Below, piece after piece: positions 8,421-38,979 of a DNA stretch of 64,000 bases (within the stretch, counting starts at the first letter, position 1; each line of letters starts with the position of its first letter). Origin of the DNA: Psychrobacter sanguinis. GTDB taxonomy: Bacteria > Pseudomonadota > Gammaproteobacteria > Pseudomonadales > Moraxellaceae. The notes under the pieces are model-generated. The model did not search any database. It saw only the letters and a program-made list of their open reading frames with translations, and was not told the origin of the DNA. The position numbers were made by a program, and so were the translations under genes. The DNA lies in NCBI RefSeq assembly GCF_020736705.1, contig NZ_CP085990.1:2914001-2978000 (forward strand), in the 5' to 3' direction.

Positions 8421-9209
8421 GGTGGTGGTTCAAAAAGTAGGCTGAAAAAAAACAGGCTGAGAAATTGATAAAATAGTGAAATGCAAATCACACTATACAT
8501 CAAATGCCCAGCCTGTCTAAGTGACAGTATAAAGAAAAATGGCTTCAAAAGCTATGGTAAACAAAACTATAAATGCAAAGACTGCAAACGGCAGTTTATT
8601 GGCGACCATGCCTTAACGTACCAAGGCTGTCACTCCCAAAAAGATAGCAAAATACGCCATCTTATGGTTCGAGGCAGTGGCATAAAAGACATCGCTTGCG
8701 TTGAGAGAATCAGCAAAGGCAAAGTACTGGCCACCCTAAAAAAGTGTCACTACCAAATAACCCCCAAGCAAAGGCAATACGACTGTCTTGAAGTCGATGA
8801 GCTTTGGACATTCGTAGGCAAGAAGACCAACAAACAATGGCTAATTTATGCCTATCACCGTGACACAGGTGAAATTGTTGCCTATGTGTGGGGAAAACGA
8901 GACCTTAACACTGTCAAAAAGCTTAAAGCTAAACTGCAAGCCTTAGGCGTAAGTTGTGCTAGAATCGCTAGTGATACCTGGGATAGCTTTGTTACCGGTT
9001 TTAAGGGCTTTACCCAAGTCATTGGCAAGTTTTTCACGGTCGGTATTGAAGGTAATAATTGCACTATCAGACATCGAGTAAGGCGAGCATTTAGGCGAAG
9101 TTGTAACTTTTCTAAAAAGCTGGAAAATCACTTTAAAGCCTTTGATTTAGCTTTCTTTTACATCAATCATGGATATGTCTAATGTCAGCCTACTTTTTGA
9201 ACCACCACC
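8421..9209 (+). mobile_element. IS1-family insertion sequence inside the lipase gene
   Basis: A 789-bp element with perfect 24-bp inverted repeats: GGTGGTGGTTCAAAAAGTAG plus GCTG at 8421-8444 and the complement at 9186-9209. The 8-bp direct repeat AAAGAATA flanks it at 8413-8420 and 9210-9217. Size, short target duplication and transposase fit IS1. Its termini recur on the 135-bp element at 36057-36191. Confidence 0.95.
8481..9182 (+). CDS. IS1-family transposase, single uninterrupted frame
   Basis: A 233-residue transposase corresponding to InsA and InsB in one frame, without the frameshift of classical IS1. The N-terminal zinc-binding motif has CPAC at 9-12 and CKDC at 33-36, followed by a helix-turn-helix (about 55-85, GSGIKDIACVERISKGKV). 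The DDE domain begins at DELWTFVGKK and continues with IASDTWDSF. The last acidic or His-containing motif lies near ENHFKAFDLAFFYINHGY. The basic segment TIRHRVRRAFRRS matches the InsB R-x-N-R-x-x-RK-type region. The gene is intact, so the element may still be active and could act in trans on the MITE. Confidence 0.92.
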   Translation: MQITLYIKCPACLSDSIKKNGFKSYGKQNYKCKDCKRQFIGDHALTYQGCHSQKDSKIRHLMVRGSGIKDIACVERISKGKVLATLKKCHYQITPKQRQYDCLEVDELWTFVGKKTNKQWLIYAYHRDTGEIVAYVWGKRDLNTVKKLKAKLQALGVSCARIASDTWDSFVTGFKGFTQVIGKFFTVGIEGNNCTIRHRVRRAFRRSCNFSKKLENHFKAFDLAFFYINHGYV

Positions 9210-34805: not shown

Positions 34806-35702
34806 TTATCCAATACGACGTTTTAACCCTGTTATCTGTAAAATTCGCGTCGCAATCTCTTCCACTGACATTTCTGATACATTTAGACTAGGGATATTTT
34901 GAGTCATATAAATGGCCTGAATAGCACGCTGCTCTTCCTCACACTGTTTGTAACTGGCATATCGACTGCCTGCTCTACGCTCTTGACGGATTTTTTGTAG
35001 TCGCTCTGTGTCAATAATTAGACCAAATAACTTACCGCGGTACGGTTGTAACGCTTTAGGCAATTGGTTATCAAATAAATCGTCTTCGGTTAATGGATAG
35101 TTTGCAGCACGAATACCGAACTGTAGCGCCAGATATAAAGAGGTCGGTGTTTTACCCGAGCGAGACACCCCAATTAAGATAATATCCGCCATATCGTAGT
35201 GACGTGTACGCGCGCCATCATCGTTGTCTAGTGCAAAGTGCACCGCATCGATACGAGATTTATAAGTCTCTGAATCCACATCATCATGGGCATGACCTGA
35301 GTGGCCGTCAGGTTCCACCCCAATTTCATCAGTAATGCGGCCGATTAGGCCTTCATACATATCGAGATTACACGCCTGTGCTGAATTAACAATCTCACGG
35401 ATATCAGGGTCAACGATGGTATCGAATACCAACGGTAAAATACCGGTGTTTTGATAAGCTTTATTAATATGCTCGACCGCAGCTTGCGCAGTCTCTATAG
35501 TATCTACATAAGGAATGACACGGGTCTCAAACGGAACACTGGCGAATTGACTTAATATAGAACGCCCCAAAGTTTCAGCAGTAATGGCCGTGCCATCAGA
35601 TATGAAAAAAGCCACACGGATAACTTGTGGCTTATCTACGGCTAAAGCACTGCGGTTTTGGATGGTGGGTTTTGCAGATAACGTGTTAATTAGGTTTTCC
35701 AT
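34806..35702 (-). CDS. ppsR: PEP synthase regulatory protein, kinase/pyrophosphorylase (PpsR)
   Basis: A 298-residue bifunctional enzyme of the DUF299 family. It phosphorylates PEP synthase on a threonine using ADP, inactivating it, and removes the phosphate with Pi-dependent pyrophosphate release. The opening VAFFISDGTAITAETLGRS and the P-loop GVSRSGKTPTSLYLA are diagnostic, as is ANYPLTEDDLFDNQLP. The loop after residue 140 has extra Asp/His/Ser residues. ATG 35702 has AAGGAAATTT upstream; ATG 35723 lacks a site. It is divergent from its target gene ppsA across 880 bp that contain a MITE. Confidence 0.94.
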   Translation of the reverse strand: MENLINTLSAKPTIQNRSALAVDKPQVIRVAFFISDGTAITAETLGRSILSQFASVPFETRVIPYVDTIETAQAAVEHINKAYQNTGILPLVFDTIVDPDIREIVNSAQACNLDMYEGLIGRITDEIGVEPDGHSGHAHDDVDSETYKSRIDAVHFALDNDDGARTRHYDMADIILIGVSRSGKTPTSLYLALQFGIRAANYPLTEDDLFDNQLPKALQPYRGKLFGLIIDTERLQKIRQERRAGSRYASYKQCEEEQRAIQAIYMTQNIPSLNVSEMSVEEIATRILQITGLKRRIG

Positions 35703-36582
35703 AAATTTCCTTAACTGAATCATAAAGATTGATAACTAAAGTTTGAGCAGATAATATCTATGTATTGTTAGTTGTCATGTTATCAAAAAACACCGTACTA
35801 AGCTGTGTTATAACTTTAACAATGCTTAAATAATGCGTACTTTTAAACAATCGTTACTTTTTTAACCGCCTCTTTACTTGAGCAAATAGTTATTGTTACA
35901 ATCAAGTTTACTATAACAATATTAACTATCGACTGTGTCTAGATAATATTGAGCGTCAGCATTGTCGACTGTCGGTAAGTAGAACGTCACTACGGTTTAT
36001 TAAAGTTTATAGCCCCCTAAGAACCGAACATTAAAACAGGTCTGCTATATTTATTTGGTGGTGGTTCAAAAAGTAGGCTGATTAAAATTTGAACAATTTT
36101 TGAAGCTTTGAAAGCCATATAGAACCTGAGAACTTAGCATAGACTTCCTATTGACTTTTAGCACCAGCCTAATTTTTTTTAGAACACCACCATTTATTTT
36201 ACTAACAATATTCTATTTTTTCTTATAAAAAACCAATCAACAACTCACCATAGATATATAAAATACGATATATTTAATAAATAAATAGTCTTTTAGAATT
36301 ATGGTGCCACCCCTCCTAAAACATCACTTCTGTATTTTGCCTCATGGACTCCTAATTGAGTTAAATGTTATAGTCGCCTCACACCCGATTACCGTAGATA
36401 GCAATCATTAAAGTTTTGCCATTTTTAATACTTTCAAAGGCCTGTAATAAAGCACCCTATGAAAGCTTAAATGGGCATTTCTTTACTCATACAATCGAAT
36501 CGTATAATTCGTGCTTACCTATACACAAATTAGATGAATAGCGGTATAATTTAAAAAAATAACCTTATTTCCTGGAGTTATC
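35703..36582. promoter_or_regulatory. Long ppsR-ppsA intergenic region
   Basis: An 880-bp gap between divergent genes. It contains the 135-bp MITE (36057-36191), and otherwise AT-rich DNA with no recognisable gene. TATAAT occurs at 36545-36550, only about 33 bp before ppsA, and at 36503-36508; neither has a good -35 at normal spacing, so ppsA promoter assignment is open. Confidence 0.5.
36057..36191. mobile_element. 135-bp MITE with IS1-family termini
   Basis: Its left end, GGTGGTGGTTCAAAAAGTAG followed by GCTGA, is identical over 25 bp to the right end of the IS1-family element at 8421-9209 (read inward). Its right end, read inward, is GGTGGTGTTCTAAAAAAAAT followed by TAGGCTGG, a diverged version. 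The 8-bp direct repeats ATTTATTT flank it at 36049-36056 and 36192-36199, the same duplication length as for the IS1 element. It has no coding capacity. It was probably moved by that transposase and sits 391 bp upstream of ppsA. Confidence 0.88.
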
Positions 36583-38979
36583 ATGACAGCACCGCAAGTT
36601 ATTACCCTAGACAAGTTAGGCAAAAACGACGTCGATATCGTGGGCGGTAAAAACGCTTCACTAGGCGAAATGATTAGCCACTTATCAGACCTTGGGGTTA
36701 GCGTACCTGGCGGCTTTGCAACCACTGCCGATGCATTTAATAACTTTCTGACTGAAACTGGTCTTTTGGACAAAATCAACAACGAACTAAAAGCGTTAGA
36801 CGTTGATGATGTTAAAAAGTTAACTGAAACTGGTGAGAAGATTCGTAACTGGATCATCGAGCAAGAACTGCCTAAATCACTTGAGCAAGAAATCCGTGAT
36901 GCTTTTGAAGTGATGAGTGAAGGTGAAGATATTGCGGTTGCTGTTCGTTCATCTGCTACTGCAGAAGACTTACCAGACGCCTCATTCGCAGGTCAGCAAG
37001 AGACTTATCTAAACATCCGTGGTATTGAGAACGTTTTAATTGCGATTAAAGAAGTATTCTCTTCTTTATATAATGACCGCGCTATCGCATATCGTGTACA
37101 CCAAGGCTTTGAACATGCTGGTGTTGCTTTATCAGCAGGTATCCAGCGTATGGTTCGCTCAGAAACCGGTGCAGCGGGCGTTATGTTTACTCTAGACACT
37201 GAGAGTGGCTTTGATGAAGTAGTATTCATCACTTCAAGCTATGGTCTTGGTGAAATGGTTGTACAGGGTGCTGTTAACCCAGACGAATTCTATCTATCTA
37301 AAGCGTTATTAGCAGACAATAAGCCTGCGGTTATTCGCCGTAACTTAGGTAGTAAGCACCAGAAAATGATTTATGGTGACGAAGGCAGTACTACCCGCTC
37401 TGTTAAAACAGTGGAAGTTGAAAAAGAAGATCGTAACCAGTTCTCTTTAACCACTGAAGAGTTAACAGAACTTGCTAAGCAAGCATTGACTATTGAGAAG
37501 CACTACGGTCAGCCAATGGATATCGAGTGGGCCAAAGACGGTGACTCAGGTAAACTATTTATCGTTCAAGCACGTCCAGAGACTGTTAAGAGTCGTCAAG
37601 ACCGTAACGTGATGGAACGCTATATTATTCAAAGTAAAGATGCCAAAGTTCTTTGTGAAGGTCGTTCAATCGGTCAACGCGTAGGCTCAGGTAAAGTACG
37701 TGTTGTGAACAGTATTCATGAAATGGATAAAGTTCAAGTAGGTGACGTTCTTGTTTCTGATATGACTGACCCAGATTGGGAACCAGTTATGAAGCGTGCT
37801 TCAGCTATTATTACCAACCGTGGTGGTCGTACTTGTCACGCTGCAATTATCGCTCGTGAGCTAGGCGTACCAGCAATCGTTGGCTGTGGTAATGCTACTG
37901 AAGTATTGTCTGATGGCCAAGAAGTAACCGCATCATGTGCGGAAGGTGATACAGGCTTTATCTACGAAGGCATGCTAGATTTTGAAGTTCAAAGCAATTC
38001 TATTGATGCCATGCCAGAACTTCCTTTCAAAGTTATGATGAACGTGGGTAACCCAGACCGTGCTTTCTCATTTGCACAAATTCCAAACGCAGGTGTGGGT
38101 CTAGCCCGTTTAGAATTCATCATCAACCGTATGATTGGTGTGCATCCTAAAGCCCTATTAAACATGAATTCTTTACCACGTGAAGTGTCTCAAGCCATTA
38201 AAGAACGTATTTCAGGCTATGCTTCACCGGTTGATTTCTACGTTGATAAATTGGTTGAAGGTATTGCTACACTAGCCGTTGCTTTCAGAAAGCAGCCAGT
38301 TATCGTTCGTATGTCTGACTTTAAGTCTAACGAATACGCTAACTTGATTGGTGGTAAACTATACGAGCCTTCAGAAGAAAACCCAATGCTTGGTTTCCGT
38401 GGTGCGAGCCGCTATGTTTCTGATAACTTCCGTGACTGCTTTGAATTAGAGTGTCGTGCTCTAAAACGTGTTCGTGACGATATGGGCTTAACCAATGTTA
38501 AGATTATGATTCCATTCGTACGTACCACTAAAGAGGCTACTGAAGTAGTAGAAATCCTAGGTAAAAACGGCTTGAAGCGTGGCGAAAACGGTCTTGAGTT
38601 AATCATGATGTGTGAGCTACCAACTAACGCCCTATTGGCTGAAGAGTTCTTAGAGCACTTCGATGGTTTCTCAATCGGTTCAAACGACTTAACTCAGTTA
38701 ACACTAGGTCTAGACCGTGACTCAGGTATCGTATCTCACTTATTTGATGAGCGTGATGCTGCAGTTAAGAAACTATTGTCAATGGCTATCACTGAATGTC
38801 GTAAACAAGGCAAATATGTGGGTATCTGTGGCCAAGGCCCATCAGACCATCCAGATTTAGCTTACTGGTTAATGGAAAAGGGCATTAGCTCAGTATCATT
38901 AAACCCAGATTCAGTACTAGATACTTGGATGTTCTTAGCAAATGACGCCAACGCTAATGCCAACGTTGTTGCTAAATAA
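36583..38979 (+). CDS. ppsA: Phosphoenolpyruvate synthase
   Basis: A 798-residue enzyme that makes PEP, AMP and phosphate from pyruvate and ATP for gluconeogenesis. The N-terminal ATP-grasp-like domain has [15 protein letters not shown] and [20 protein letters not shown]. The phosphohistidine domain contains [17 protein letters not shown] (catalytic His in TCHA, with the regulatory Thr just before). The C-terminal PEP-binding barrel ends with [17 protein letters not shown]. Length equals E. coli PpsA (792). TGGAG precedes ATG 36583. PpsR, its regulator, is encoded divergently. Confidence 0.97.

Follow-up and report, generated by a model that had tools for sequence, protein, structure and literature searches.

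A Psychrobacter MITE family with IS1-type ends and a possible change of helper transposase

The 135-bp sequence at 36057–36191 (forward strand) of the window, by which we mean the whole 64,000-nucleotide stretch of Psychrobacter sanguinis DNA that was analysed, is a MITE. Its ends match those of IS1-family elements, and comparison across the genus suggests that they carry the mark of two lineages of such elements, denoted IS-A (resident in the window) and IS-B. We consider it probable that the family originally had IS-B-type ends, that these were re-tuned to IS-A in the lineage to which the window genome belongs, and that the re-tuned form then transposed again. The more specific proposal is that the MITE switched helper between two IS1 transposases of ~62% identity, with position 20 of both ends acting as a determinant of specificity, before transposing once more; this we hold to be slightly better than an even bet.

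The element, its family and its insertion sites

The MITE in the window has the termini GGTGGTGGTTCAAAAAGTAGGCTGA...TTTTAGAACACCACC, which form imperfect inverted repeats of ~25 bp, and is bordered by two perfect copies of the octet ATTTATTT, identified from the sequence at 36049–36056 and 36192–36199 (no strand assigned). The left repeat (36057–36081, forward strand) equals both ends of the resident IS1-family element over 25 bp, and the right repeat (36164–36191, reverse strand) begins GGTGGTGTTCT and is of the IS-B type. The coordinates originally predicted for the 135-bp element, its 25 bp of resident IS end and its perfect 8-bp duplication proved exact. The element is non-coding, no entry of at least 80 aa in the window's list of open reading frames (ORFs) overlapping it, and neither an Rfam family nor a tRNA was found in the window. 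It exceeds the family norm of 132 bp because its right repeat contains three extra A:T pairs, and this repeat also has one changed base. Because of the 3-bp gain and the loss of a conserved base at its right end, this copy is probably immobile and would now be a poor substrate for transposition. Its duplication is still perfect, which points to a fairly recent arrival.

Two further copies reside in the window genome (94% and 92% identity), and matches at an E value of 1e-10 or lower were found in 42 of the 105 Psychrobacter genomes. Eleven genomes, including all five whose matches had hit the per-genome limit, were rescanned with a larger number of candidates scored, and copy numbers went up to 14. 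Across the taxonomic family, 45 of the 348 genomes searched with a query copy taken from another genome gave matches; of the 16 genera represented, only Psychrobacter contained them. An exact 31-base pattern likewise recovered 21 stretches in named records, every one from Psychrobacter; it had no match among viral contigs, and phage records gave no match to the MITE. Both plasmids found to carry the MITE are also from Psychrobacter. One of them, pP32BP2 of Psychrobacter sp. DAB_AL32B, holds an unannotated copy (NZ_MK422609.1 19058–19189); the paper describing this plasmid lists two complete transposable elements, the MITE copy not among them, and does not use the word MITE.

The 128 matches in the loci examined reduced to 120 distinct ones and, after removal of five partial matches, to 115 near-full-length copies comprising 64 different sequences. 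Of the 112 copies whose right end is clean, 102 are 132 bp long. When sequence alone was used to place the right end, the flanking octets agreed at 8/8 positions in 81 of 115 copies and at 7/8 in another seven; an earlier count, for which the right end was chosen partly by flank match and three copies lacking a clean end were omitted, gave the same 81. Clustering of the flanks resolves about 110 separate sites, and the octet is perfect at 81 of these. Cross-pairing the flanks of different copies yields 8/8 agreement in 0.14% of cases, which is the chance level; this rate and the two further copies in the window genome rule out chance. The 81 perfect duplications are 85% A+T and tend towards AAAWATTT. 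Six or fewer flanking bases match in 24 of the 112 copies scored, which counts against our reading; two of these copies (L061 and L186) resemble 9-bp or shifted duplications by eye.

Empty sites were recovered for several insertions. The joined flanks of the insertion in genome G062 are uninterrupted in 11 close relatives at 91–97% identity, and in G062 itself the two flank pieces overlap by 8 bases. For an insertion in G081 (Psychrobacter piechaudii) the joined site is uninterrupted in G005 (Psychrobacter pasteurii; 79%) and G023 (87%), and the insertion in G005 has an uninterrupted counterpart in G085 (71%), the support here being weaker. The joined site of the insertion in G089 includes a repeat that is widespread, and no clean empty site came out for it. 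At another locus (L059) the right flank holds a repeat of ~62 bp; G081 and G005 each have about 40 matches to it, G085 has about 20, and the window genome has about a dozen. Ten identical elements at distinct sites in G112 show a recent burst. One insertion, flanked by ATATAGTT / CTATCGTT, is common to G030, G101 and G096 (L043, L076, L202), so some copies are inherited vertically. A copy elsewhere in the window genome (L003 1501–1630; G000:C1:2987889–2988018) abuts an ORF of 440 aa, which may be lpxB from its appearance, and supplies its final residues (WWCSKK) and stop codon. The original prediction of a MITE related to IS1 elements is therefore upheld by many copies, 8-bp duplications (81 of 115 perfect), empty sites and insertion polymorphism across this genome and its relatives; the sequence is neither single-copy nor fixed at one site in every relative.

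A further arrangement occurs in genome G004, where two MITEs lie 589 bp apart in the same orientation (L037 780–1632; G004:C1:275216–276068). Neither has a duplication of its own, and the pair is bounded by a common outer octet, TAAAAATG. Among all pairs of MITEs from one genome that include at least one copy with no duplication of its own, no other pair shows a perfect match. The 589-bp cargo consists of pieces found apart in other genomes; its right-hand 281 bp stand beside a MITE in another setting in three other genomes. Two cargo ORFs (51 and 78 aa) gave no significant Pfam match, and no empty target of the composite was found among the loci examined. According to passages of a published account (PMC13367494), TIME-COMP similarly consists of two miniature elements that bound a cargo within one outer duplication, but has Tn3-type ends and 5- or 6-bp duplications, whereas the ends in G004 are IS1-type and the duplication is 8 bp. 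Lacking Tn3-type ends, the composite was rejected as a TIME-COMP member; by analogy, it may work in a like manner.

IS1-family lineages and the origin of the ends

The resident element IS-A is 789 bp long (8421–9209, forward strand), with the duplication AAAGAATA on both sides and two identical 25-bp ends, GGTGGTGGTTCAAAAAGTAGGCTGA. Its transposase gene (8481–9182, forward strand; 233 aa), the proposed trans-acting mover, had been described as intact, and the product indeed passes the NCBIfam IS1 cut-off (transpos_IS1, NF033558, 222 bits against 100) and also matches Pfam DDE_Tnp_IS1 (PF03400). In the window genome there are 17 matches to this transposase, all of at least 89% identity; 13 are full-length, essentially identical and intact, and the remainder are diverged or broken. 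Perfect 8-bp duplications flank 12 of the 18 IS-A copies for which both ends were found. Single-ORF IS1 elements of this type in Moraxellaceae presumably resemble ISAba3. Beyond Psychrobacter, IS-A has a 96.7% match on an 11.6-kb plasmid recorded as from avian Escherichia coli (NZ_CP116244.1 7284–8079) and an 88% match on a Moraxella osloensis plasmid, which may reflect transfer between genera. Elements on Acinetobacter plasmids, annotated as IS1 family transposase, are 74.8% identical to it.

IS-B, common in the genus, measures about 803 bp (799–809 bp), and its transposase is 60–64% identical to that of IS-A. Its ends are mostly GGTGGTGTATCA(A/G)AAAGTATGCTG and GGTGGTGTTCTAAAAAGTATGCTGG; among 29 copies, 22 have this left end, 24 have a right end that starts GGTGGTGTTCT, and 11 have perfect 8-bp duplications. 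IS-B was undetected in the window genome, which has no transposase match within the IS-B identity range. A third IS1 lineage, present in G085 and G022, shows 76% transposase identity and has GGTGGTGTTTCAAAAAGTATGCTGA at both ends.

Five of the 115 MITE copies differ from the rest at their ends; we refer to them as re-tuned and return to them below. In the other 110, the right end is invariably nearest to IS-B alone of the three IS1 lineages (110/110), and 82 of these right ends are exact to IS-B over 26 bp. The left end is nearest to IS-B alone in 35 copies, while in the other 75 the third lineage is as near as IS-B, so that the identification of IS-B as the first partner depends on the right end; these ties slightly lower our confidence in the reading as a whole. 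No left end among the 110 is nearest to IS-A. Taken with the uniform right ends, this makes IS-A an unlikely ancestral partner.

Re-tuned copies and a possible change of helper

Three of the five re-tuned copies are in the window genome, one is in G005 and one in G081. All have a left end nearest to IS-A and a right end nearest to IS-B. They occupy five different sites, with three perfect duplications and one of 7/8; the remaining copy, L002, has no duplication. The majority sequence of the five differs from the three nearest copies, in G114, at six columns, four of which (8, 9, 20 and 114, the last being position 20 of the right end) have changed to the IS-A state. The other two, 43 and 70, are interior, and column 43 has C in two of the three G114 copies and in 15 of the 110 other copies. 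Counted from the sequences, only one of the five positions that distinguish an IS-A from an IS-B-type right end has changed. The window copy has G at the position equivalent to 20 in its right repeat, which is the IS-A state, and departs from the majority of the group by its lengthened right end and base change and by two further changes. Random change reproduced the end changes in none of 2,000,000 simulations, a post hoc calculation in which the five substitutions are taken to be random and independent. In a tree built from interior columns, the five re-tuned copies fall within a group of 20 rows (SH-aLRT 97). The ends of the other 15 rows are of the IS-B type. Four of the re-tuned copies cluster together (84), and L003 is not placed with them.

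The simplest reading of the re-tuned ends is a change of helper transposase. Under the proposed mechanism the MITE, which has no gene, would move when an IS1-family transposase supplied from elsewhere binds and cuts both of its ends; AT-rich targets would be duplicated over 8 bp in the process. The MITEs would have spread in Psychrobacter with IS-B-type ends. In the lineage comprising the window genome, G005 and G081, in which IS-A is or was resident, re-tuning to IS-A would have been complete over 25 bp at the left end but confined to position 20 at the right. Further transposition of this form would then have given rise to the insertion between ppsR and ppsA. What the data show directly is the family, its duplications and empty sites, the sequences of the ends, and the grouping of re-tuned with IS-B-ended copies by their interiors. 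We infer that the IS-A transposase moves the re-tuned copies, that the end changes were selected, and that the steps took this order. Re-tuning is not automatic, since G114 and G067 contain IS-A-like elements together with MITEs that are not re-tuned. IS-A-like elements are also found in G075 and G013, which have no MITE match, and G081 carries one IS-B-ended MITE copy in addition to its re-tuned one. Further points against the reading are that the re-tuned copies number only five and that in G005 the IS-A transposase was found only as a fragment.

The most serious alternative, which we nevertheless regard as improbable, is that MITEs placed by IS-B acquired their IS-A letters through gene conversion or drift; IS-A would then never have been the mover, and IS-B would have been lost later. 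Such a loss is conceivable given the patchy occurrence of IS-B, and the damaged right end of the window copy also fits. G005 has a 60%-identity remnant with stops, which again agrees with loss. Against this, the same change is seen at both ends, the right-end change is common to all five re-tuned copies, which occupy five sites and come from three genomes, and the site of the re-tuned G081 insertion is uninterrupted in G005 and G023. The common change at five sites and the empty sites of the G081 insertion indicate that movement came after it, short of a separate in-place conversion of every copy.

According to the original prediction, the element carries the terminus of the resident IS1 element at its left end and a diverged copy of it at its right. 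The first part stands, the left 25 bp being identical to IS-A, but the right end is instead nearest to the IS-B right end in all five re-tuned copies. The window right end is unlike IS-A mainly because it is of this other-lineage type and, in addition, because of the 3-bp lengthening and base change specific to this copy. A decayed IS-A right end is ruled out by right ends nearest to IS-B in 115 of 115 copies. The same counts bear on the notion that the MITE arose from IS-A by simple internal deletion and has a decayed right end. That origin is favoured by the 25-bp identity of the left end and by the 13 near-identical intact IS-A transposase copies in the genome. Yet the right end starts GGTGGTGTTCT in 5/5 re-tuned copies, as in 24/29 IS-B right ends; an IS-A left end is present in 0/110 other copies; and, past the first 25 bp or so, the MITE looks by eye like neither IS-A nor IS-B. 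Derivation from IS-A by internal deletion is thus largely refuted, and we give it very little credence.

Genomic setting and relation to known elements

The window MITE lies between two divergent genes, ppsR, the PEP synthase regulator (34806–35723, reverse strand), and ppsA, PEP synthase (36583–38979, forward strand), at 333 bp before the former and 391 bp before the latter. A ppsR match is present in 104 of 105 genomes of the genus; among the matches listed, with coordinates compared by eye, a MITE within 5 kb of ppsR occurs in the window genome only (1/104). A comparison of ppsA–ppsR gaps had been suggested as a check. In G005 and G023 homologous blocks on both sides enclose a shorter gap without the MITE; a base-exact empty site was not obtained among relatives because the intergenic flanking DNA is too diverged. 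The placement of the MITE in the control region of the two genes found no backing. The best-conserved stretch upstream of ppsA among relatives is to the right of the MITE and outside it, and of the six promoter-like sites in the region, a number close to the 4.3 expected, none is inside the MITE. As a control element of ppsA/ppsR the MITE was accordingly rejected, its position not being common to relatives. A conserved, immobile hairpin or regulatory element of ppsA/ppsR, brought to mind by ends that pair into a hairpin (z −2.24) and by the location between divergent genes, has next to no probability, being refuted by the G062 empty sites and the duplication counts (about 110 separate sites, 81 with a perfect duplication) and opposed by the 103 of 104 genomes with no MITE within 5 kb of ppsR among the matches listed.

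Several described elements share features with this family. Passages of the report on MITEAba12 of Acinetobacter (Adams and Brown 2019, PMC6382973) describe a non-coding element, mostly 113 bp long, likewise from Moraxellaceae. Like the MITE here, it has the ends of a co-resident IS, target duplications and an interior unrelated to the IS. According to those passages, however, its ends are GGCTTTGTTGCACAAA / GGCTTTGTTGCATAAA, its duplications are 9 bp and its partner is ISAba12, whereas the present family has GGTGGTG... ends, 8-bp duplications and IS1-family partners. Without GGCTTTGTTGCAYAAA ends or a 9-bp duplication as given there, membership of MITEAba12 was rejected. Among single-ORF IS1-family elements of Moraxellaceae, IS-A has the terminal repeat and 8-bp duplication of the MITE, but such elements are about 790–803 bp long and contain a transposase gene, which the MITE lacks. 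The Sulfolobus MITEs SMN1 and SM3A, in the relevant passages of PMC3718332, are also non-autonomous and ascribed to named transposases acting in trans, but there the partners are ISC1733 and ISC1058, the hosts are archaeal and the lengths are 320 and 164 bp. A 187-nt MITE of Microcystis makes 8-nt duplications as here but, unlike the present family, is ascribed to an ISL3 partner and has GGCTCTTCG ends, as stated in passages of PMC11448079. No IS1-type MITE and no Psychrobacter MITE appeared among the matches listed from the open-licence literature, and in a 2024 review of prokaryotic MITEs neither Psychrobacter nor IS1 (as a whole word) occurs.

MITEs as a kind are already known; what merits an experiment here is the apparent helper switch. 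With its matched transposases and end types, the system offers a natural experiment that bears on how a parasite of a parasite keeps up with a switch of helper and on which end bases set transposase specificity. If the helper switch is true, the natural variants of both ends, together with the transposases, would make end recognition in the IS1 family directly testable.
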